A stretch of DNA of 48,022 nucleotides from Nostoc sp. TH1S01 (GTDB taxonomy: Bacteria > Cyanobacteriota > Cyanobacteriia > Cyanobacteriales > Nostocaceae), in NCBI GenBank assembly GCA_018993265.1, contig JAGKSW010000151.1, positions 1-48,022 of the forward strand. The letters run 5' to 3'. Below, in pieces: positions 9,822 through 48,022 of this stretch; the stretch's first letter is position 1; each line of letters starts with the position of its first letter. Position numbers and translations under genes: made by a program. The notes under the pieces are model-generated. The model had not been told where the DNA came from. It searched no databases and saw nothing but the letters and a program-made list of their open reading frames with translations.

Positions 9822-10442
9822 TTACATAAAAGTAATTTTCCTCAATCTTCTATATTTTTTTAGGCTATAAGCCTGAAATTTATTGCGGAGGAGGAAGATA
9901 ATAATAGTTGTATTGATAAAAAAGATGTAGAGTGGAAAAGCTGAAAGAGTAAACGACCAAGACTCAATAGCGAAAAGATTAAGTGTACTAGCTGCTAAAT
10001 ACAAACTCCAAGTGAGTGAATTTTCTGTCTGTGGTTCATAGTAAGACTTCTTAATTGTAGGTAATGCACCTAAAAAATCAATCAATATATTCAACAAAAG
10101 CGCAATTAAGGGTGAATTGAACTGCCACCAAAGCAATAGACTGATACCAACACCCAAAAGACACAGCCGATCAAAACGGCTCCAACCTCCCTCTCCGTGC
10201 TTAAGAGATAGAATAGCAACGATTAATTGACCAATTCCACCACATACAGGAAGCCAAACTGTATTGCCAGCACCACTAGAATAGTAACTGGCACTAATTA
10301 CAGTACTCAAAATTACCCATATCCACCAAGTTGCTCTATTTGGTTTAGTTTTACCCTGCAAAATCGTGATGATGTAAGGTACAAAGCAGAGTATGGAAAG
10401 AAAACCTGCAACTGCCCCGATTGTCGCTTGCCAGCCAGCCAT
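9822..10442 (-). CDS. PQ-loop-like integral membrane protein
   Basis: 206 residues with about seven hydrophobic segments and two similar halves. The first has FLSILCFVPYIITILQGKTK followed by NRATWWIW. The second has LGALPTIKKSYYEPQTENSLTWSLY. The spacing Pro-x(n)-basic-(N/S)-x-x-(T)W resembles PQ-loop/SemiSWEET-type repeats. It lies between a desaturase gene (64 bases upstream) and the sensor kinase (90 bases downstream), all on the same strand. A transport or membrane-organising role is plausible but unproven; no specific substrate can be inferred. The start is ATG at 10442. Confidence 0.6.
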   Translation of the reverse strand: MAGWQATIGAVAGFLSILCFVPYIITILQGKTKPNRATWWIWVILSTVISASYYSSGAGNTVWLPVCGGIGQLIVAILSLKHGEGGWSRFDRLCLLGVGISLLLWWQFNSPLIALLLNILIDFLGALPTIKKSYYEPQTENSLTWSLYLAASTLNLFAIESWSFTLSAFPLYIFFINTTIIIFLLRNKFQAYSLKKYRRLRKITFM

Positions 10443-39457: not shown

Positions 39458-40726
39458 ATGAAAAAGCAACAGCTACGCATTGCGATGTTTACAGGATTGT
39501 ATTCTCCTTTCCTGACAGGAGTTTCCGTTGCAGTCCATCAAAGAGTTCGCTGGTTGCTACAACAAGGACATCAAGTTCTACTTGTCCATCCAGAAATTAA
39601 CGATAAGTATCCCAAAAAAGTTAGCGATCGCCCCATGCCAGGGTTAGATGAGTTAAAGTCTTTTCCGACTTTTTCTTCATATATATTCCCCACAGAGCCT
39701 TTAATATTTTATAAGTCTCTACCCCAACCATTAAACTATCGTCATTGGAGCGATAATAAACTGCTGCAACAATTTCAACCAGATATTATTGTGGTTGAAG
39801 AAGCTGCCCAAATACGAGGAGTGTATTCAGCCTTTTTGCAAGGTTATGGTCGCCCTGTTGGAGTAGAATATGCAAAAAAAACTCATACTCCAATTATTTC
39901 AGTTTTTCATACTGATATTGTTGCCTACATCAAATATTATTTAGGAGATACATTTTTCAACCTCCTCCGGCCAATTATTCCTTTGATAGTCAAACAGTTT
40001 AGTGAAGCTTACGACCTGAATTTATTTTCTTCCAAAGAACAGCTTGTAAAATACCAAAATCTCCAATGTCAACGTAGTGAATATCTTCCCTATCAAGGAA
40101 TTAATTGCGAAAAATTTCATCCCAGGAACATCATTTATAATCCAATACCTAATGACAATAGACCGACTCTACTCTTTGTAGGACGCGTTACAGCCGAAAA
40201 AAATGTGACTCAATTAATAGATGCTTTTCCCATCATTGCAGCTAAAATTCCTGATGTGCATTTAGTAATTGTTGGTAGCGGCCCCTTAGATGCCGAAATT
40301 CGTCGGCGTTCTCAAAAATTTGGTTCTGGAATTACTGTCTGGGGTGAGTCACACGGTACAGAACTTTTAGGTTGGTTTGCGCGTGCAGATGTATTTGTGA
40401 ACCCTTCAGTAACAGAAAACTTCTGCACCACGACTAACGAAGCTTTAGCTTCAGGAACTCCTGTAGTAGCGGTGACTGCACCCTCAACATCAGAACAAGT
40501 ATTTCCTGGTCGGAATGGCTTTTTAGCGGAACCAAATAACCCTAGAGATTTTGCTCAAAAGGTAATTGCTATCTTAGAAAATCCTGAACTCAAAGCCTCA
40601 ATGAGCGAACAAGCCCGTCCTTCTATTCTTCAGTATGATTGGTCTGCTTGTATGGAGAAGTTTGAAGCCAAACTTTATGAAGTGGTACAAGCATCTCAAC
40701 CACGAAAACCCACAGTTGTGGGATAA
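39458..40726 (+). CDS. hglT: HglT-like glycosyltransferase (family 4/GT-B)
   Basis: 422 residues. It has a two-Rossmann GT-B fold: the N-terminal FTGLYSPFLTGVSVAVHQRV loop, a central linker, and a C-terminal donor domain with LLFVGRVTAEKNVTQLIDAF, VWGESHGTELLGWFARADVFVNPS and the family 4 signature E-x7-E in ENFCTTTNEALASGTPVVAV. HglT transfers glucose to the HGL aglycone in Anabaena. Position at the end of the seven-gene plus-strand arm agrees with hglT there. It is the last gene of the arm, with a large hairpin about 40 bases downstream. No clear Shine-Dalgarno is seen before the ATG. Confidence 0.87.
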   Translation: MKKQQLRIAMFTGLYSPFLTGVSVAVHQRVRWLLQQGHQVLLVHPEINDKYPKKVSDRPMPGLDELKSFPTFSSYIFPTEPLIFYKSLPQPLNYRHWSDNKLLQQFQPDIIVVEEAAQIRGVYSAFLQGYGRPVGVEYAKKTHTPIISVFHTDIVAYIKYYLGDTFFNLLRPIIPLIVKQFSEAYDLNLFSSKEQLVKYQNLQCQRSEYLPYQGINCEKFHPRNIIYNPIPNDNRPTLLFVGRVTAEKNVTQLIDAFPIIAAKIPDVHLVIVGSGPLDAEIRRRSQKFGSGITVWGESHGTELLGWFARADVFVNPSVTENFCTTTNEALASGTPVVAVTAPSTSEQVFPGRNGFLAEPNNPRDFAQKVIAILENPELKASMSEQARPSILQYDWSACMEKFEAKLYEVVQASQPRKPTVVG

Positions 40727-40765
40727 CTTGACCATCGCTCCAGTTAGCTAAAATTACAGCAATCC

Positions 40766-40820
40766 CAAATGATTAGGACTCACGTAGAACAATAATTGGC
40801 GCGTGAGTCCTGATCATTTG
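40766..40820. terminator. Long hairpin between convergent genes
   Basis: Arms of 19 bases (40766-40784 and 40802-40820), paired throughout with one G-T wobble, and a 17-base loop. It lies 39 bases after hglT and 35 bases past the end of the opposite gene, so it may terminate both transcripts. There is no T-run, and it could equally be a mobile palindromic element. Confidence 0.7.
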
Positions 40821-40855
40821 TGAGAGCAAAGATACTCGAATTTTCATCAAAATCC

Positions 40856-42304
40856 TCAATTGTTAATTTGCCACAGGCGATCGCAGAAAAACGGACGAAA
40901 TAACTCACAGGCTAGACTTGCTGTCATACCATGCAAATGTACTAACCCCATCTTTTGCAACTGGGAGGCTTGTAGAGCCTCACAATTTATCGGACTTGAT
41001 TGCCGAAGGATTTCTGTAAAATATGGCAATAAATCGGGATAGCGTTGCAGATTTGACCATTGCTGTTCTAGATGGTCTGCATAGATGGTGGTGGTAGTAG
41101 CAGAATTTTCTAAGAGTTCTTCTAGAGTAATTGTCTGCTGATGTAGATAGTAAAATGCCAGTTGCAACCGATAGGGGTGTCCTCCCAAAAAAGCGATCGC
41201 CTTCTCAATTTGTTGTGCTGTCATTTCTTCTCCCCACCGATGTGCTAATTCTTGTACTTGATTTGGGGTAAATTCAGGTAACTCAATAACTAGTCCAGTA
41301 TTCAAGAAGGATTGATTGACCACATTGGTCATCTGAAGTTCTGTGGAATGAACTGTCACCAATCGGAGTTTGTGCCAAGGATTGCTATCCACCACTCTTG
41401 CTTTAGCTTGTTCACACCAAGTCCGCAAAAGTAGGAGAAATTCACGAGCAATATCTGGGTAGGCAAACAGGTGATTTAGTTCATCAATCGCAATCACTAG
41501 GGGGCGATTCAAGTTAGCTAAAATCACATCCTCAAAGTAATCTGTCGCGTTCGATTTGCTACCCAAGGCATCATCCCAAAAATTGGCGATCGTGTTTGGT
41601 AGGTCTAACTGCTTGCTGACTCTGGCACAGAACCATTGTAGGAAGCGTTCTAGGTTCTGTAAAATCTCGTCGTTGGCAAGTTGCAAGCTCACAGACACGG
41701 TTTGATATCCCAGGTTTTTAGAGTAAGCCAAGATGCGCGTCATCAAGGAGCTTTTGCCCATTTGCTTGGGGGCGCGGATATTGATTGACGCACCTGATTG
41801 GTGAATAGCTTTGTAACAGAGCGATTCAAGAATGGGACGATGAATGTAGAAGACAGAATCCAAAGGCATCTGTCCCCCTGGTGGTGTGAGGGGACGAGGT
41901 TGGAGATAGTCTTGCGGTCGTTCCATGTTGTAAATTTGGTGAGTATTGTTGCGATCGCAAATTTGTTTGAGAGGAAAGCAGATTTCCGCAGCGGCCATTG
42001 AACTAATCTTTGCAAAATCGTCTTGTTCACGTAACAAGTAAAGATAATCCTCGTTTAATAAAGTCAAATTAAAGGCGTGGAAACAGCACTCCAAAGTTCG
42101 CTTATCAACTCCCACTGAGCCAGTAAAGACCTTGCTGAGAGTATTGGGAGTTAAACCTGTTTTTTCACTCAAATCTTCGAGAGTACATCGCTTAAAGTTT
42201 TGCTGAACTTCTACCTCAGCTTTTGCCTGATTGAGTTTTTTTAAACCTTGAGCCGTCAGAATTGTACCCCGCCGCCGTAGATGATGTTTTGCTCGCAATT
42301 GCAT
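40856..42304 (-). CDS. HTH-AAA-like (AAA_35/STAND-type) ATPase
   Basis: 482 residues. The N-terminus is Arg/Lys-rich, followed by an HTH-like domain (about 35-90) with TLEDLSEKTGLTPNTLSKVF. The AAA_35-type NTPase core (about 140-430) has Walker A in APKQMGKSS (178-186, first Gly replaced by Ala) and Walker B in LVIAIDELNHLF. This family is frequent in cyanobacteria, often next to other regulators. It may sense a signal by ATP-driven conformational change and bind DNA with the HTH. It lies upstream of and divergent from the PatA-like protease gene, 551 bases away, so it could regulate that cluster. Confidence 0.8.
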   Translation of the reverse strand: MQLRAKHHLRRRGTILTAQGLKKLNQAKAEVEVQQNFKRCTLEDLSEKTGLTPNTLSKVFTGSVGVDKRTLECCFHAFNLTLLNEDYLYLLREQDDFAKISSMAAAEICFPLKQICDRNNTHQIYNMERPQDYLQPRPLTPPGGQMPLDSVFYIHRPILESLCYKAIHQSGASINIRAPKQMGKSSLMTRILAYSKNLGYQTVSVSLQLANDEILQNLERFLQWFCARVSKQLDLPNTIANFWDDALGSKSNATDYFEDVILANLNRPLVIAIDELNHLFAYPDIAREFLLLLRTWCEQAKARVVDSNPWHKLRLVTVHSTELQMTNVVNQSFLNTGLVIELPEFTPNQVQELAHRWGEEMTAQQIEKAIAFLGGHPYRLQLAFYYLHQQTITLEELLENSATTTTIYADHLEQQWSNLQRYPDLLPYFTEILRQSSPINCEALQASQLQKMGLVHLHGMTASLACELFRPFFCDRLWQINN

Positions 42305-42855
42305 ATTTTTATCTGAATAAATTAAAAAATATTTTTAGTAATTTTATTACTAAATCTATCTAATTATAGATGACTGATATATTTTAATAATTTACGCAAT
42401 CCAGTTACAAATCTTATGAATACAATTATGCAAAGTTTATTCTTAAATTCCTTCGGAGCTAGAAATTATTCATAAAAAACAAAAGCATATTTCTTAAATT
42501 TGTATTTTTTCCAAAGTTAAAAACGATATTAATTAATTTTTACAAACTACTTAAGTTTAAATAACTAAAGGCAACACAGCAAATACCCAAAGTCATTTGC
42601 TGATCCGAAGTTATTAACTTTGTTCTTAAAGTTGCAAACTTTAGTGGTATTCACGGTAGAGAAGCTGAATAATAAGCAACAAGTGAGCCAGAACTTACTG
42701 AAAACAGGGAGTGCGATCGCTCCTCAATACGCCCCAAATCCTTACCAATGAGCAATGAAAAATTATGACCAAAGCCAGTCCGTTGCAATAGCGGCTCTAC
42801 TTACATAAAGTTTTTAACTTATTAAACTTAGCAAGATTATAAGTAGGATTTCTAT
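42305..42855. other. Divergent promoter region upstream of the protease gene
   Basis: A 551-base AT-rich intergenic region with a HIP1 octamer at 42713-42720. No gene is supported; an 8-codon ATG frame near 42764 is not credible. It should hold the promoters of both the ATPase gene and the protease/peptide cluster. Confidence 0.5.
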
Positions 42856-45054
42856 ATGACCACTGGCTTTACCGACATTTCAGCATTGCCCAAACTCACA
42901 TCGCTCTGGGCTGAATCTCTAGGGGACTCTCGTATATGTGTTGCAGTGCTTGACGGGCCAGTAGACGAGTCCCATGACTGCTTTAACGGTGCCAACATTA
43001 ATCGGTTGCCAACCCTAGTCTCAGATAGTGCGGGCAATGGCATAATGTCTGGTCACGGAACACACATTGCCAGTGTAATTTTTGGTCAACATAGTAGTTC
43101 TATGAAGGGTATTGCCCCTGGTTGCCGTGGGTTAATTGTTCCAGTATTCTCCGACACTCACCGGGGTAAGCTTTCACAACTAGATTTAGCACGAGCCATC
43201 AACCAAGCTGTTGAAGCTGGAGCGCACGTCATTAACATCAGTGGCGGTCAACTGAGTCAGTCGGGTGAGGCTGACCCCATATTGGCTAATGCAGTTCGTT
43301 TCTGTAATGAACAGGGAGTTCTGATTGTTGCGGCTGCGGGTAACGATGCTTGCCAATGTCTTCATGTTCCCGCCGCTCTGCCTTCAGTACTCGCTGTAGG
43401 TGCGATGAATGCCCAAGGATTGCCCATTGATTATAGTAACTGGGGCAATATTTATCAAAACCAAGGCATCCTCGCTCCAGGTGAAAACATTTTGGGAGCA
43501 GAGCCAGGTGGCGGGATAGCTCCAAGGAGTGGTACTAGCTTTGCAACGCCTATCGTATCGGGCATTATTGCTCTGCTACTTAGCATTCAACTGGTACAGG
43601 GAGAAAAACCCAATCCCCATGCTATCCGTGAAGCCATCCTCAAAAGTGCCACGCCTTGTAACCCAACAGTGACTGAGGATTGTCGTCGCTTTTTAGCAGG
43701 AAGTCTTAACATATCTGGAGTTTATACGCTAATTAAAAAAGGAGGATTAACAGAAGTGTCTGATGAACAAACAGAAGAAGCCATTATTCATCCCAGTCAG
43801 GCTAGTGGCTTTGAAGCAGAACCAACTGACCATATAGACAAGCTTGGACAACTCGTACCGAGTGAAGCTATTGATATCAGTTTAGAAGAATCCGCCCTCC
43901 AACCCTCAGAGATTGGCATACAGGCGGCACAAGCGACAAACTCAGAATCTACTCCAACAACCATTCAGAATTTAGGAAATCCTATGCCTATCACATCTAA
44001 CAACTTAACAGCTGTAGGTGCTTCCTCTGCCAATAGTAGTTATGTAGTACCTGCTGGCGACTGTGGGTGCAACGGTGGTGCAGTCGTGTCGTCCGTCACC
44101 CCAAGTAATGCACCAATGTCTCTGGTTTTCGCAATTGGAACTCTTGGTTATGATTTCAGAACAGAAGCACGTCGAGATAGCTTTAAGCAACTTATGCCTA
44201 TGGTGTGGTCAGATAACTATCTACCTGCTAATACTACGCCGCAAGTTTCATCTTCTGCGATTCGAGTTCCAGCTAATCCTTATGATGCCAGACAAATGGC
44301 ACGCTATTTAGAAAGCAATATTTCAGAGGCGGCATCACTTATTTGGACGCTAAATTTGGAACTAACACCCATTTATGCTATTGAGCCACAAGCCCCTTTC
44401 GCTTTATCCATTTATCAATATTTTCAGGATTTTCTAGCTGGACAAGTTCTAGATAAAAACGATGACAATTATATTGAGAGGGTTTCTATCCCAGCCGTTT
44501 TAACAGGTAAAACCGTTACCCTTTTTTCTGGTCAGGTTGTTCCTGTTATTGAACCATTAAATACTCGTGGGATGTACGGTTGGAAAGTTAACGCATTACT
44601 CAATGAGGTACTCAATGCGATCAAAAATCAGAATCCACCACCGAATCTTACTCCTCAACAAGAGGATGAGATTGAATATTCTTTGAAGAATTTCTTGATG
44701 CGGATTTACTATGATCTCCGAAATCTTGGACAAACCTCTGCGGAAAGGGCGCAAAATTTTGCCTCGACTAACATCTTCCAATATGCAGATGCCTTAGTTA
44801 ATGTATTGATGAACCAAAGTCGTTCATGGGCATCCTCTGATGATCCCCAAGCAGTAACTATGCAGTTAGACTCCTTGGAAGTGGAACGAAGCCCCTTCTG
44901 TCGGAAAGATTCAGATTGCTGGGATGTAAGGATCAAGTTTTTCGATCCAGAAAATGATCGGCGTGCGAAAAGAGTTCTGCGCTACACCATTGATGTCAGC
45001 GATATCATGCCAGTGACATTAGGTGAACCCAGAATATGGGATATTGCCAACTAA
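42856..45054 (+). CDS. PatA-family subtilisin-like peptidase (cyanobactin maturation type)
   Basis: 732 residues. The N-terminal S8 domain (about 20-295) has an intact triad: D33 (VAVLDGPVD), H67 (SGHGTH), S227 (RSGTSFATP), with N162 (AAGNDA) as oxyanion residue. An acidic linker (about 300-380) and a DCGCNGG Cys cluster (about 398-404) follow. The C-terminal half is the PatA/PatG-family domain, recognised by FAIGTLGYDFRTEARRDSF near residue 424. The LPKLTSLWAESLGDSRICVAV start is typical of PatA. PatA cleaves the cyanobactin leader at the N-side of the core. There is no signal peptide, so it acts in the cytoplasm. The small leader-bearing ORFs follow immediately on the same strand and are its likely substrates. 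Confidence 0.88.
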   Translation: MTTGFTDISALPKLTSLWAESLGDSRICVAVLDGPVDESHDCFNGANINRLPTLVSDSAGNGIMSGHGTHIASVIFGQHSSSMKGIAPGCRGLIVPVFSDTHRGKLSQLDLARAINQAVEAGAHVINISGGQLSQSGEADPILANAVRFCNEQGVLIVAAAGNDACQCLHVPAALPSVLAVGAMNAQGLPIDYSNWGNIYQNQGILAPGENILGAEPGGGIAPRSGTSFATPIVSGIIALLLSIQLVQGEKPNPHAIREAILKSATPCNPTVTEDCRRFLAGSLNISGVYTLIKKGGLTEVSDEQTEEAIIHPSQASGFEAEPTDHIDKLGQLVPSEAIDISLEESALQPSEIGIQAAQATNSESTPTTIQNLGNPMPITSNNLTAVGASSANSSYVVPAGDCGCNGGAVVSSVTPSNAPMSLVFAIGTLGYDFRTEARRDSFKQLMPMVWSDNYLPANTTPQVSSSAIRVPANPYDARQMARYLESNISEAASLIWTLNLELTPIYAIEPQAPFALSIYQYFQDFLAGQVLDKNDDNYIERVSIPAVLTGKTVTLFSGQVVPVIEPLNTRGMYGWKVNALLNEVLNAIKNQNPPPNLTPQQEDEIEYSLKNFLMRIYYDLRNLGQTSAERAQNFASTNIFQYADALVNVLMNQSRSWASSDDPQAVTMQLDSLEVERSPFCRKDSDCWDVRIKFFDPENDRRAKRVLRYTIDVSDIMPVTLGEPRIWDIAN

Positions 45055-45119
45055 TTAGATGTCAGCCTTACTACTACTCGATACCTGTAAATCAAGTAAT
45101 TACATTAGGAGAAATTATC

Positions 45120-45278
45120 GTGAAACTTTCACAACAATCTAAATTACCAAAGCAAGTTGCCCCTGTTCAGCGCCTCTCTACTTCATCTGCAATGTCGAAT
45201 CAGCAAGGGATGGAAGCAAGTAATTCCAATAATGTTGAATCTAGTGGGATGTTTGATATTCTCAGGATGTTTGGTTAA
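45120..45278 (+). CDS. Candidate RiPP precursor peptide 1 with PatA-type leader and GMEAS site
   Basis: 52 residues from GTG at 45120, with AGGAG eight bases upstream. The longer reading frame from 45036 overlaps the protease stop and has no such signal. The leader has LPKQVAPVQR (residues 9-18), the cyanobactin-type LPxQxxPVxR motif (compare LPQQGQPVIR in PatE). GMEAS (30-34) matches the G[LV]E[AP]S signal before the PatE cores. The predicted core is NSNNVESSGMFDILRMFG (35-52, 18 residues), with a hydrophobic C-terminus. It has no Cys, Ser/Thr-rich heterocycle pattern or AYDG-type C-terminal signal. It lies 65 bases after the protease gene. The motif assignments come from pattern comparison by eye. 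Confidence 0.75.
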   Translation: MKLSQQSKLPKQVAPVQRLSTSSAMSNQQGMEASNSNNVESSGMFDILRMFG

Positions 45279-45298
45279 TACCAAAATCCAAATTTAAT

Positions 45299-45321
45299 TG
45301 GTCTGTACTAAATACAGACCA
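45299..45321 (+). terminator. Hairpin between peptide genes
   Basis: TGGTCTGTA-CTAAA-TACAGACCA: a perfect 9-bp stem with a 5-base loop, 20 bases past precursor 1. There is no T-run. It is more likely a processing or attenuation structure that sets the ratio of protease/precursor 1 to later ORFs. Confidence 0.6.
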
Positions 45322-45346
45322 TTAACAAACAAAAGGAATAATAAAT

Positions 45347-45583
45347 ATGAAAATTCCCATTCAATCGCTACCAGTAATCAGAACAGATTTGATAAAGCCT
45401 AATACTGTAGCTGATCTAATTCATGCCCCCAAAGAACAATTCCTGGAACTAGAATTAAATTTACTACATGGCGCAGACTATAATGATCCAATGAAATTTT
45501 TAACTTCAGCAAACTACGGTGGATGTCAGTTATTATCTGAAAACTCAATGGCTATGTGTTTAGCCGCTATTGGATTATTTTAG
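45347..45583 (+). CDS. Candidate leader-bearing peptide 2 (no PatA cleavage signal)
   Basis: 78 residues from ATG at 45347, preceded by AAAAGGAAT. The N-terminus has IPIQSLPVIR (3-12), the same leader motif as the other precursors. The rest is longer: an acidic helix (EQFLELELNLLHGA), a KFLTSANYGGCQ stretch and a hydrophobic end MAMCLAAIGLF with two Cys (YGGCQ and AMCLAA). No G-x-E-x-S element is present. It may be a differently processed precursor, or a leader-recognition helper protein. It may also be a decayed precursor. Its place between peptide 1 and the 206-residue protein supports its being part of the cluster. Confidence 0.6.
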   Translation: MKIPIQSLPVIRTDLIKPNTVADLIHAPKEQFLELELNLLHGADYNDPMKFLTSANYGGCQLLSENSMAMCLAAIGLF

Positions 45584-45737
45584 TGTTAAACATTAGACAT
45601 TTCCAAAGTTGCTTCTGAAACCAAGATATATCAATCAAGTTTTAATTATCAATTTTGGGTAATGTCTAGTAATACTAACTAATAATAAATTTTAGCCTTA
45701 ATCATTTGATGAATTGTGGAAAAATAGAGGAATAATC

Positions 45738-46358
45738 ATGAATAATATACTCCAGAGTATATCTAACGTGGAGCAACCAGTAACTGCTACCACAGAAGTG
45801 TCTGAAACTGTTTCTAAAAAGCCTGTAGAGTCCAAAACTGTTTCAACAAAGGTTAGATCAGCAGATAATCGTGCAAAAATAGAAACTCCATCTGAATGCG
45901 GAGGAAAGCAGCCAGAAAAACCTCATAAAACCATCTTTGATGAATTTTCAGAATATATTGATAAATTAAAAGATGATGTTAATAACCCGGATTTTAGCAT
46001 TGATAAGTTGGAAAAGCCAAGTGATTTAAATTCATCTGAAACAAAAGAAAAAATTGAAAGAGTTAGAAACAAAACATTCAGTTGTCTAACAACCATAAGA
46101 AATTACATAGAAAGTCATATTCATAATTCTGAACATTCAGAAAAATTGAGTGATCTGATGTTTCATAAAGATATTAAAGAAATTCTGGATAGAACTAACC
46201 CATATGATAAATTGACTGTTTTAAAGAGGATGGACAGGAAAATAGCGAATGATAATAAAACAGATGCACTATTATCTTATGAAGTTGGTCGTTTCTTACT
46301 TCAATCTCTTAAAGAAGATGGTTTTTTACCCCGTCAAATAGGCAGAATTTGGTCTTAA
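45738..46358 (+). CDS. Hypothetical charged helical protein in the RiPP cluster
   Basis: 206 residues from ATG at 45738 (AGAGGAA upstream); the frame's TTG at 45714 is rejected. I do not recognise it. The N-terminus (NNILQSISNVEQPV) is a weak echo of the peptide leaders, followed by a Lys/Ser/Thr/Glu-rich disordered stretch (about 15-65) and a compact helical part (about 66-200) with charged helices and Cys near residue 120 (FSCLTTIRNY). It has no TM, signal peptide or known motif. It sits between precursor ORFs, so it could be an immunity, adaptor or leader-recognition protein; there is no direct evidence. Confidence 0.55.
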   Translation: MNNILQSISNVEQPVTATTEVSETVSKKPVESKTVSTKVRSADNRAKIETPSECGGKQPEKPHKTIFDEFSEYIDKLKDDVNNPDFSIDKLEKPSDLNSSETKEKIERVRNKTFSCLTTIRNYIESHIHNSEHSEKLSDLMFHKDIKEILDRTNPYDKLTVLKRMDRKIANDNKTDALLSYEVGRFLLQSLKEDGFLPRQIGRIWS

Positions 46359-46478
46359 CTGAAGCTGTAAATAGGATTTATAAAAGAAGTAATTCCTATG
46401 AAATTAACTGGTAAAAACTCAAATGAATTAATTGTATCAATAACTAACATAAATTGACCAAAGCAAGGAGAAAAGACT

Positions 46479-46520
46479 ATGAATATTCCAATTCAGGCTG
46501 GACACGTACCACGAAATTAG
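46479..46520 (+). CDS. Truncated leader peptide ORF (13 residues)
   Basis: MNIPIQAGHVPRN with an AAGGAG Shine-Dalgarno (46465-46470) at proper distance. It repeats the first 12 residues of the precursor leaders (IPIQ-x3-V-x-R) and then stops at TAG. It looks like a precursor gene cut off by a stop codon, or a leader-only product. It is too short for ordinary gene finders. Confidence 0.5.
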   Translation: MNIPIQAGHVPRN

Positions 46521-46580
46521 TGGTAATTGTTCAGTGAACAAACAAGAAAACAACGAAATCACAAAATCAGGAGAAAAATC

Positions 46581-46751
46581 ATGAAATCATCTAGACTTCC
46601 CATCCAATCTGCACCTGTTGAGCGTACTATTACTGGTGCTGCTGTATCAAATGGCAATGGCGTTGATCCTAGTTTTGATTGGGGGGGCCTGCTCAAAACT
46701 GTTGGAAATGTTGCGGCTACTGCCCTTCCGGCAGTACTGGGCGCTATCTAA
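46581..46751 (+). CDS. Candidate RiPP precursor peptide 3 with GVDPS site
   Basis: 56 residues from ATG at 46581, with AGGAG eight bases upstream; the longer frame starting at TTG 46527 is unlikely. The leader has LPIQSAPVER (6-15). GVDPS (27-31) matches the PatE-type G[LV]E[AP]S element. The predicted core is residues 32-56 (25 residues), beginning FDWGGLLKTVGN and ending TALPAVLGAI. It is a hydrophobic, Gly/Ala/Leu/Val-rich, possibly amphipathic helical sequence, like membrane-active bacteriocin-type peptides. The core has no Cys or C-terminal macrocyclisation signal. It is followed by two terminator-like hairpins, ending the unit. Confidence 0.75.
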   Translation: MKSSRLPIQSAPVERTITGAAVSNGNGVDPSFDWGGLLKTVGNVAATALPAVLGAI

Positions 46752-46771
46752 ATATAAACTCAAAAATGGAG

Positions 46772-46795
46772 CCCAAAAATAATTTGATTTTTGGG
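46772..46795 (+). terminator. Hairpin after precursor 3
   Basis: CCCAAAAAT-AATTTG-ATTTTTGGG: a 9-bp stem and 6-base loop, 20 bases after the stop codon. It is the first of two successive hairpins. Confidence 0.6.
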
Positions 46796-46810
46796 TTACT
46801 AATTAAAGTG

Positions 46811-46844
46811 AAAGTATGGGAGAAATTAATTGTTCCCATACTTT
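46811..46844 (+). terminator. Rho-independent terminator of the precursor unit
   Basis: AAAGTATGGGA / TCCCATACTTT: a perfect 11-bp stem with a 12-base loop, followed by a T-rich tail (TTCTCTT). Together with the preceding hairpin it forms a strong double terminator between precursor 3 and the methyltransferase gene. Confidence 0.8.
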
Positions 46845-46979
46845 TCTCTTGACTCAGAATGTGTTCATGAATACGCCTTGAGCCAGTTGATCAATTTTCC
46901 GCAATCACTGTGAACTGTTGGAGGTAGAATCACTCGGCAGAAAATTATAGTTTTTCTAATGACGTGAAGTTCATTCATT

Positions 46980-47834
46980 ATGAGTATTACTCGATTATCC
47001 GTTGAACATGTCTCCGATACGGCAATTTTGACAGCTTTGGCACGAGCTATTGAAAGCGATCGCCCCGATGCTCTGTTCAAAGATCCCTTTGCTCGATCTT
47101 TAGCTGGGGTGCGTGGTGAGCAACTTGTAAGCTCAATTCCCAATATTGACTCCTTATCTAAGGCGATTGCTGTACGAACTCACGTAATTGATGAGTTCAT
47201 CTTGAAAGCTGTCTCCCAGGGAGAGATTGATACTGTTCTAAACTTAGGATCTGGTCTGGATACTAGACCATACCGACTACCTTTACCATCGTGGTTGCGG
47301 TGGATTGATTGCGATCTACCAGGTATTCTAAGCTATAAATATGACACTCTCTCGAATAACCATCCAAATTGCACACTTGAATTCATATCGCTCGACATAA
47401 CCGATGATCGAGCTAGGCGAACAATTTTTCAGCAAATCAATCAGTCAGCAGGCAGTGTAATGGTGGTTTCTGAAGGATTGCTTATTTATCTAAAGCCAAT
47501 ACAGGTAACTGCTATAGCTATTGATCTACGTGAGCAGAGACGGTTTTTATGGTGGTTAACCGATCTGAGTTCGCCAAAGGGATTGCAGTTGACTGAAGAA
47601 TTCCTGGGTGTCAACCGCCTGAACAGTCAGGTCAAATTAGAATTTGCTCCTGAAGAAGGAATTGAATTTTTTCACAATTTCGGTTGGAGAAAGATGGCGC
47701 TTCGATTCCTTTTGGATGAAGCCTTGCGCCTGAAACGCATCAATTTATCGGAAGAATTGCTATCTCAACTGCCTTTTAAAGGCCAACAGAATTTACGCAA
47801 TGTTTCTCGTCTAGTGTGGCTCATTAGAACATAA
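46980..47834 (+). CDS. LCMT-family (TIGR00027-like) SAM-dependent methyltransferase
   Basis: 284 residues of the leucine carboxyl methyltransferase-like family. Visible motifs are the N-terminal DTAILTALARAIESD and FKDPFARSLAG, the AVRTHVIDEFI helix, the SAM-binding VLNLGSGLDTRPYRL, IDCDLPGILSYK (acidic ribose ligand), and VSEGLLIYL. The full length is typical. Known family members methylate carboxyl groups or small phenolic/polyketide substrates. It has its own start after a terminator (228 bases past precursor 3), and another leader-like mini-ORF follows at 47943. If it belongs to the RiPP cluster it could methylate the free C-terminus of a linear peptide, but this is inference. Confidence 0.8.
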   Translation: MSITRLSVEHVSDTAILTALARAIESDRPDALFKDPFARSLAGVRGEQLVSSIPNIDSLSKAIAVRTHVIDEFILKAVSQGEIDTVLNLGSGLDTRPYRLPLPSWLRWIDCDLPGILSYKYDTLSNNHPNCTLEFISLDITDDRARRTIFQQINQSAGSVMVVSEGLLIYLKPIQVTAIAIDLREQRRFLWWLTDLSSPKGLQLTEEFLGVNRLNSQVKLEFAPEEGIEFFHNFGWRKMALRFLLDEALRLKRINLSEELLSQLPFKGQQNLRNVSRLVWLIRT

Positions 47835-47942: not shown

Positions 47943-48005
47943 ATGAAACTACCTAAGTACAGCTTTGCACAAGTTCGTAGCGAATTGACAAGGGAAATTT
48001 ATTAG
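47943..48005 (+). CDS. Leader-like mini-ORF at the window edge
   Basis: 20 residues, MKLPKYSFAQVRSELTREIY, with AAAGGAG upstream. The start (KLP-x(7)-R spacing: LPKYSFAQVR) is loosely like LPKQVAPVQR of precursor 1, but the Q and PV positions differ. It could be a truncated precursor, or the start of another unit that continues, perhaps frameshifted, beyond the window. Confidence 0.35.
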   Translation: MKLPKYSFAQVRSELTREIY

Positions 48006-48022
48006 GTGTAGGGTAAGCATAA

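Follow-up and report, generated by a model that had tools for sequence, protein, structure and literature searches.

Cyanobactin clusters of the patellamide type encode PatA, PatB, PatC, PatE and PatG, with PatD and PatF as optional members. According to a 2015 review, active clusters always encode both an A and a G protease, and clusters were at that time known from cyanobacteria alone (PMC4663559). The same review describes linear members, the aeruginosamides and viridisamide, which have 3-5 residues, thiazoles and prenyl groups and come from clusters with a fused methyltransferase-prenyltransferase; C-terminal methylation is also known in linear cyanobactins (PMC4663559). Muscoride uses the YcaO enzyme MusD, as stated in a leader-peptidase review (PMC10885120). 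The stretch studied here (the window) is the 48,022-nucleotide contig JAGKSW010000151.1 of Nostoc sp. TH1S01 (GCA_018993265.1), and its subject is a locus in which a PatA-family protease gene (42856-45054) is followed by small precursor genes, while no PatG was found in the assembly. PatA-only clusters were not found described in the open-access literature, to which coverage was largely confined, most subscription journals lying outside it.

Based on the results of this study, the locus is best read as a compact locus for ribosomally synthesized and post-translationally modified peptides (RiPPs), drawn from the cyanobactin toolkit and free of a macrocyclase, in which PatA would act as a stand-alone leader peptidase that releases linear peptides. 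This reading is given a probability of roughly two in three.

The original prediction of a PatA-family protease with an intact triad, followed by four small open reading frames (ORFs starting at 45120, 45347, 46479 and 46581, the first with GTG), was borne out. The 732-residue protein encoded at 42856-45054 (+ strand) scores 781.4 bits against TIGR03895, the model of the cyanobactin maturation proteases PatA/PatG (cut-off 421). Its Pfam domains are an S8 subtilase (aa 26-267), PatG_D (424-549) and PatG_C (601-728), the last two being parts of the 'PatG' domain of unknown function, and its triad D33/H67/S228 is invariant across 13 aligned PatA proteins. Among PDB structures, PatA-type proteases match best (385 to 365 bits), and the PatG macrocyclase reaches 196 bits. 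The Asp-His distance is 35 residues; read by pattern, it is 34-36 in 33 of 87 PatA proteins (one aberrant reading of 6, 53 unmeasurable) and 72-89 in 15 of 25 PatG proteins (10 unmeasurable), and the macrocyclisation insert of PatG is described in the 2015 review (PMC4663559). Because the spacing is PatA-like and the PDB matches favour PatA-type proteases, the protein is, judged from its sequence, a PatA and not a PatG.

The window is an entire contig (C110) of a genome of 247 contigs and 7.65 Mb, rated 100% complete. When the whole assembly was searched with PatG_C and TIGR03895, this PatA was the sole protein above the cut-offs, in agreement with the original picture of a PatA-family protease without PatG, and a trans-acting PatG was rejected on this basis; two other subtilases (C42, C170) match the protease part alone, below the cut-off. 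A PatG or YcaO just outside the window had been named at the outset as a finding that would speak against the prediction. This check has been answered in part: no PatG turned up in the assembly, and the window's right end is also the end of the contig, which closes with a repeat. The last ~69 bases (47953-48021, + strand) have 95-99% identical copies on C120, C175 and C23, which would explain an assembly break. A short ORF at 47943 (MKLPKYSFAQVR...) was considered as a further precursor and rejected, since it overlaps this repeat. YcaO genes do lie outside the window. Two, of the thiazole/oxazole-modified microcin (TOMM) type, were found on other contigs (C88 and C244), neither of which was found to carry a copy of the contig-end repeat, and none was found in the seen part of the locus, whose precursors carry no heterocyclase signal. 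These two genes belong to separate TOMM cyclodehydratase loci (C88 14206-16509; C244, L062 8346-10806), one of the fused SagC/SagD type and one split. PatF had no match among the eight window proteins scanned (39458 to 47834), no genome-wide search with a PatF model having been made.

The protease gene is followed on the same strand by precursor alpha, a PatB-like gene, a gene for a 206-residue protein, a precursor relic, precursor beta and an LCM-family methyltransferase gene, and purine-rich ribosome-binding sites precede the starts of alpha, 45738, the relic and beta. An [LI]P-x-Q...R N-terminus is present in all four small ORFs, as had been claimed. Of the three intact precursors and one truncated ORF originally proposed, two precursors (45120 and 46581) stand and the truncated ORF is a 13-codon relic, whereas the ORF at 45347 is PatB-like. 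The relic (46479-46520, + strand; MNIPIQAGHVPRN, then a stop) has its own ribosome-binding site, with AAGGAG upstream. Alpha (45120-45278, + strand, 52 aa) starts with GTG behind an upstream AGGAG and contains the leader motif LPKQVAPVQR (45144-45173), the PatA signal GMEAS (45207-45221) and the predicted core NSNNVESSGMFDILRMFG (45222-45275); similar ORFs directly follow PatA in L065, L173, L174, L175 and L058. Beta (46581-46751, + strand, 56 aa) contains the leader motif LPIQSAPVER (46596-46625), the PatA signal GVDPS (46659-46673) and the predicted core FDWGGLLKTVGNVAATALPAVLGAI (46674-46748), with a conserved leader and a variable core relative to its relatives. When the genome was searched with the 46581 precursor, the matches were the query and the 45120 leader (E 0.05), and nothing else.

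The cores are 18 (alpha) and 25 (beta) residues long, contain no Cys and run to the C-terminus of the precursor. Without modification, their calculated monoisotopic masses are 2016.903 (alpha) and 2453.368 Da (beta), and a methyl group would add 14.016. The beta core is predicted to be a neutral, hydrophobic amphipathic helix of ~25 residues; an AlphaFold model also has a helix over the core (aa 34-55), but it was not relied on because of its low confidence (mean predicted local distance difference test score 64). Neither precursor has the heterocyclase signal (recognition sequence I, RSI) or the C-terminal cyclisation signal (RSIII, AYDG-like). Both have the PatA site (RSII), which the original prediction had overlooked, GVDPS by pattern and sequence and GMEAS by eye, the strict pattern having disallowed M. 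According to the leader-peptidase review, PatA-like enzymes cut after G(L/V)E(A/P)S (PMC10885120). The linear product that had been suggested agrees with the missing RSIII and macrocyclase. Scans of ten small proteins and neighbours with NCBIfam, and of the window ORFs, found no family that covers a core, the weak matches falling in the leader. The leader and RSII region match the anacyclamide/piricyclamide precursor models TIGR04446 and PF19158 weakly (20.9 bits for alpha against TIGR04446, and 21.8 bits), below the curated cut-off of 35, and unlike those precursors the window's have no C-terminal cyclisation signal.

A scan of GTDB species genomes for relatives covered the best 80 of 484. 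A PatA-profile match above 150 bits was present in 73 of these 80 loci; four held generic subtilases and three had no match, probably owing to broken frames or frames leaving the stretch. Within the class, 25 of 291 genomes carry PatG_C, a survey that is blind to PatG without its C-terminal domain. Nine of the 25 have an intact PatA alone (G000, G037, G053, G088, G116, G156, G162, G233, G252), and the loci of the other 16 were read as PatA with PatG, PatA with a C-terminal-domain-only protein, PatG alone, or fragments. Whole-genome PatG_C searches of 30 genomes with PatA-only loci gave exactly one match in 25, three to five in four and none in one (L063, whose protease is truncated).

The neighbourhood search for PatA without PatG that had been suggested showed that PatA-only loci with conserved leader ORFs recur. 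Of 53 loci in which PatA is near-complete and the analysed stretch shows neither PatG nor YcaO, 30 had leader-type ORFs on the same strand within 3 kb downstream (58 in 144 kb, seven of them PatB-like). This is far above chance, mononucleotide shuffling of the downstream DNA (50 shuffles) giving an expectation of 0.12. Another 10 such ORFs, all within seven of those loci, lay elsewhere (820 kb, both strands). The strict leader motif was absent from 23 of the 53 loci, several of which are on short contigs or in the canonical clade, and looser leader ORFs missed by it adjoin PatA in L037, L103, L112 and L122.

In a tree of 82 proteases, with one protease per locus and with five duplicate loci and incomplete proteases left out, the window falls in a clade of 44 rows (SH-like approximate likelihood ratio test 99) that spans seven phyla and takes in every leader-bearing PatA-only row except L051 and L088; several deep branches of this tree are long, as the program warned. 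A second tree of 48 rows, which omits the non-cyanobacterial rows, L088 and leaderless PatA loci such as L067, L071, L079, L080, L086, L087, L096 and L037, places 20 cyanobacterial PatA-only rows (100/100) apart from 24 rows of the canonical side (98/88). Judged from these trees, the PatA-only proteases examined make up a clade of their own, and the arrangement is not a one-off remnant. The clade includes L136, which has a YcaO nearby, and many of its non-cyanobacterial members are metagenome-assembled genomes (MAGs). Strict leader ORFs adjoin clade members in six of the seven phyla and strict RSII occurs in five: it was found in 23 of 36 precursor-like ORFs in cyanobacteria, four of nine in Acidobacteriota, two of five in Bacteroidota, one of seven in Pseudomonadota, one of three in Actinomycetota and none of four in Bacillota, with no such ORF found in Nitrospirota. 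It is thus chiefly in cyanobacteria that the cleavage signal stands out.

Some individual loci may be mentioned here. The Bradyrhizobium/Kiloniellales group of the clade has no leader that was found except a divergent one in L122 (a Bradyrhizobium MAG), where a small ORF 61 bases past the protease, a candidate precursor of divergent sequence, has the site GVRPS and the core FDWWGAASDVLGLGQKYL, which resembles the window's beta core. In the actinobacterial loci L105, L124 and L127 of the clade (Nonomuraea, Microtetraspora), PatA is found with a second subtilase and LPIQSAPV precursors that end PFAGEGDE or PFADENDE, one of which shows three apparent cores; these products may well be cyclised. 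L051 (G162) lies at the base of the canonical side, its PatA is the single PatG_C match of the genome, and it holds PatB, a protein with a GRIW tail and one LPIQSLPVDR precursor, possibly reflecting a separate loss of PatG. In L050, a Nif11-domain protein (9929-10306; 26.4 bits, cut-off 23.8) is encoded between PatA and three Cys-rich precursors.

After removal of ORFs with many unknown residues, those with <12 or >130 residues after the motif, duplicates with an identical post-leader sequence and one chance ORF of L108, the 44-row clade has 70 leader ORFs, six PatB-like and 64 precursor-like, the latter in 33 loci; one retained ORF (L103 6609) looks like chance. A strict RSII-like pentapeptide follows the leader in 31 of the 64 precursor-like ORFs (shuffled mean 0.57, maximum 4, 500 shuffles) and in none of the six PatB-like ones. 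LAEL and [AFSTV]YDG occur in none of the 64 and FAG[DE] in one, and RSI-directed heterocyclisation was rejected because of the absence of LAEL. By eye, the cores of other PatA-only loci are often Cys-rich, and those of the window type are hydrophobic.

Ten loci are window-like (the window, L058, L064, L065, L066 and L173-L177), that is, they have PatA, a PatB-like protein, at least one RSII-bearing Cys-free precursor and no PatG or YcaO in the analysed stretch; in the 48-row tree they form two lineages and not one clade. Among 14 beta-type precursors compared pairwise, leader identity (mean 58%) exceeded identity over the first 20 core residues (mean 29%) in 89 of 91 pairs; for the window and L065 the values are 82% and 15%. 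The other two pairs have a core identity that equals or exceeds that of the leader, e.g., 90% versus 89% for L064 and L176. The hydrophobic moment exceeded that of shuffles at P<0.05 in 14 of 15 beta-type cores, the exception being L125 (Mycolicibacterium). These 15 precursors were hand-picked as RSII-bearing and Cys-free; L066 and L177 each have a second such precursor, with a longer spacer, that was not included. As the rows are related to one another, a combined P value is no true probability. L064 (Oscillatoria sp. PCC 10802), for example, has the predicted cores AWYDTLLEVAKKVAPIATTVLGSL and AWYDTVLDVVKTVAPIAAPILTSLI. By eye, patatin-like phospholipase genes lie within ~5 kb of PatA in four of the ten loci (L066 7439-8650, L173 6785-7936, L176 11130-12254, L177 9697-10959).

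Three further genes of the locus had been overlooked in the original prediction or, in the case of 45347, assigned to the wrong role. The 78-residue protein at 45347-45583 (+ strand; leader-like IPIQSLPVIR) matches the PatB/AcyB/McaB model TIGR04220 with 51.7 bits, just under the cut-off of 55 (E 5e-14), and has no PatA cleavage signal; it was therefore rejected as a precursor. A PatB-like homologue is present in all other nine window-like loci. The strict motif LPxQ..P[VIA]xR occurs within the first 60 residues of 18 of 45 distinct PatB-like proteins and a looser form in one more, and, on reading the list, L replaces Q in an otherwise identical motif (LPKLSPPVKR) in most of the remaining 26. 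PatB and the precursor may, to judge from this shared motif, use one docking site.

The 206-residue protein at 45738-46358 (+ strand) ends RQIGRIWS (46332-46355), and the three canonical PatC proteins tested (TIGR04447) end FRRGRIW plus one residue. The body of the former has no credible family match and one homologue, in L063, and TIGR04447 does not match it; the agreement is confined to the terminal GRIW-x and to where the gene lies, and it was a comparison of its neighbours that revealed the tail. Proteins encoded right after PatB with otherwise unrelated bodies end VGRIWA in L065, IGCIWS in L173, IGRIWA in L174 and VGRIWC in L175, and the one after PatB in L058 ends VGMVWS; in L063 the protein that ends IGRIWA directly follows PatA, and no GRIW-type tail protein was seen in L064, L066, L176 or L177. 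The 45738 product is thus read as a PatC-position protein that appears to keep the tail alone, not a member by the TIGR04447 test. PatC-type ORFs in general, 65 to 1147 residues long, differ greatly in their bodies and share a constant C-terminal GRIW-x tail (for example L077 12286-12483 and L101 13800-17243).

The gene at 46980-47834 (+ strand) encodes a 284-residue LCM-family methyltransferase dependent on S-adenosylmethionine (PF04072 104 bits; TIGR00027 99.7 bits, cut-off 93.55). It is present in seven of the ten window-like loci, each time directly 3' of a beta precursor with a gap of 64-265 bases, and a homologue at E<1e-20 was found in none of the 88 other loci (the 98 loci compared include a few duplicates); the canonical locus L083 holds a weaker homologue (3e-16) at ~8 kb from PatA. 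LCM enzymes methylate a C-terminal leucine carboxylate.

The following mechanism is proposed from gene content, motifs and conservation. Alpha and beta would be made with an N-terminal leader, whose LPxQxxPVxR part may find its docking site in PatB or in the C-terminal domain of unknown function that the protease carries; the latter is suggested by the fact that the motif recurs with PatA that carries the domain, and the motif is also borne by PatB-like proteins. Cited alongside this idea is a protein in an Acidobacteria MAG (L100 12056-14128), encoded beside PatA and two precursors, which has the domain twice and no subtilase match. PatA would then cut after RSII (GMEAS/GVDPS), and since there is no RSIII and no PatG, the core would keep its genome-encoded C-terminus and stay linear. 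The methyltransferase next to beta probably methylates the beta product, plausibly at its C-terminal carboxylate. PatB and the PatC-tail protein would assist PatA or the precursors and not PatG or PatD, because both are retained here without the latter two. The products would be likely to act as membrane-active or signalling peptides.

Several observations weigh against this reading, and four alternatives were considered. The locus could be an ordinary cyanobactin cluster that has lost PatG, PatD and PatF and is disappearing. Decay in some copies is evident from the relic at 46479 and from L063, which has a truncated protease and no precursor by motif; the contig ends in a repeat, and inactive cyanobactin clusters have been reported (in Nodularia, PMC3610870; also PMC4558948). 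The strong clade of cyanobacterial PatA-only proteases (100/100) argues otherwise, as does the same small gene set with intact precursors in ten loci, in which the cores diverge and most stay amphipathic, and decay is thus considered unlikely. It is likewise doubtful that a macrocyclase or YcaO, acting in trans or encoded just beyond the contig end, yields a cyclic or heterocyclised product. The contig stops 188 bp past the methyltransferase, so that part of the cluster may be unseen, and the genome has the TOMM YcaO genes on C88 and C244 and the generic subtilases on C42 and C170; a PatG without its C-terminal domain would escape the PatG_C search. In Oscillatoria PCC 10802 and Okeania SIO2C9, which hold five and three PatG_C matches, a trans PatG is possible. 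The window genome, on the other hand, is rated complete and yielded no PatG, its two other subtilases match the protease part only, below the cut-off, and the precursors lack RSI, RSIII and core Cys, with no contig-end repeat found on C88 or C244. Ring closure by transpeptidation through PatA itself, which might be imagined from the homology of the PatA and PatG subtilases (one query matches both), is highly improbable in view of the missing macrocyclisation insert (Asp-His 35 versus 72-89) and the absence of any RSIII-like C-terminal signal.

The small proteins might also be regulatory or docking partners of the protease, with the released core being waste or an intracellular signal. PatB has the same N-terminal motif without a cleavage signal, and the leader motif alone is therefore no mark of a product; moreover, no transporter or exporter was found among the eight window proteins scanned. 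A conserved leader with a variable amphipathic or Cys-rich C-terminal part, often in several paralogues, is the pattern of RiPP precursors, and this alternative is judged improbable. The remaining difficulties for a macrocyclase-free RiPP locus concern its parts. Strict RSII is missing from 33 of the 64 precursor-like ORFs, many of which have near variants (GMEAS, TITPS) and some nothing recognisable. The alpha cores are short, and the amphipathicity figures cover beta-type cores alone. Three of the ten window-like loci have no methyltransferase, and methylation is therefore not universal. As to docking, the copy of the domain in PatG did not appear to bind the PatE substrates tested in one study (PMC4259220).

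A possible regulator is encoded divergently from the protease gene (40856-42304, - strand), an AAA_35 ATPase (PF14516, 420 bits) with a weak N-terminal helix-turn-helix below the cut-off; L173 and L091 have close homologues on the opposite strand, upstream of PatA, and weaker matches lie in L049 (two), L083 and L051. Pfam searches of ten neighbours of seven PatA-only loci revealed no common extra gene. The upstream neighbours were a sigma factor, a tetratricopeptide repeat (TPR) protein and an O-methyltransferase in L065 and a TPR protein in L064; L036 had a CAP protein and a permease, L038 a Tle1-like protein, L050 and L100 the Nif11 protein and the protein with two PatG_C domains already mentioned, and L058 no neighbour with a family match.

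Compared with patellamide-type clusters, the locus shares an orthologous PatA with the same C-terminal domain, a PatB-like protein, a PatC-type tail, the LPxQxxPVxR N-terminus and RSII. It differs in that the genome search found no PatG, the locus holds no PatD/YcaO, the precursors have neither RSI nor RSIII and a core that runs to their C-terminus, and the LCM methyltransferase is stand-alone. With the linear cyanobactins it has in common a predicted linear product and a methyltransferase, whereas neither a YcaO heterocyclase of the aeruginosamide/muscoride kind nor a methyltransferase-prenyltransferase fusion is present in the seen part of the locus. Class II bacteriocins and amphipathic lytic peptides likewise have a short leader and a small hydrophobic amphipathic core, but the window leaders end in GMEAS/GVDPS without a double glycine, the peptidase is a PatA-family subtilase, and no C39 ABC transporter was seen among the scanned window proteins.

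In contrast to the 2015 review, a PatG-less type recurs in cyanobacteria, and in Acidobacteriota, Bacteroidota, Pseudomonadota, Actinomycetota and a single Clostridia MAG this leader motif likewise occurs next to proteases of the clade. In a study of Greenland cryoconite, some of the most-expressed 'cyanobactin' clusters, one of them in a Nostocaceae MAG, share one S8 peptidase gene alone with the reference cluster (PMC12350317); these may be of the PatA-only type, which is a lead and not a result. It is an evenly balanced question whether PatA-family proteases are the core of a phylum-spanning 'PatA-only' RiPP class, with the cyclic cyanobactins as a single branch that gained PatG. The minimal set would then be a subtilase with a leader-docking C-terminal domain and at least one LPxQxxPVxR-RSII precursor, the products would be linear amphipathic helices (the window type, part of them carboxyl-methylated) or Cys-rich disulfide peptides, and the domain of unknown function, whose structure determination did not settle its role, would bind the conserved motif. 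The window type pares the pathway to PatA, PatB, a PatC-tail protein and precursors. This makes the roles of the C-terminal domain, of PatB/PatC and of the LPxQ...R part of the leader testable, and it offers predicted linear peptides whose maturation would be simple.

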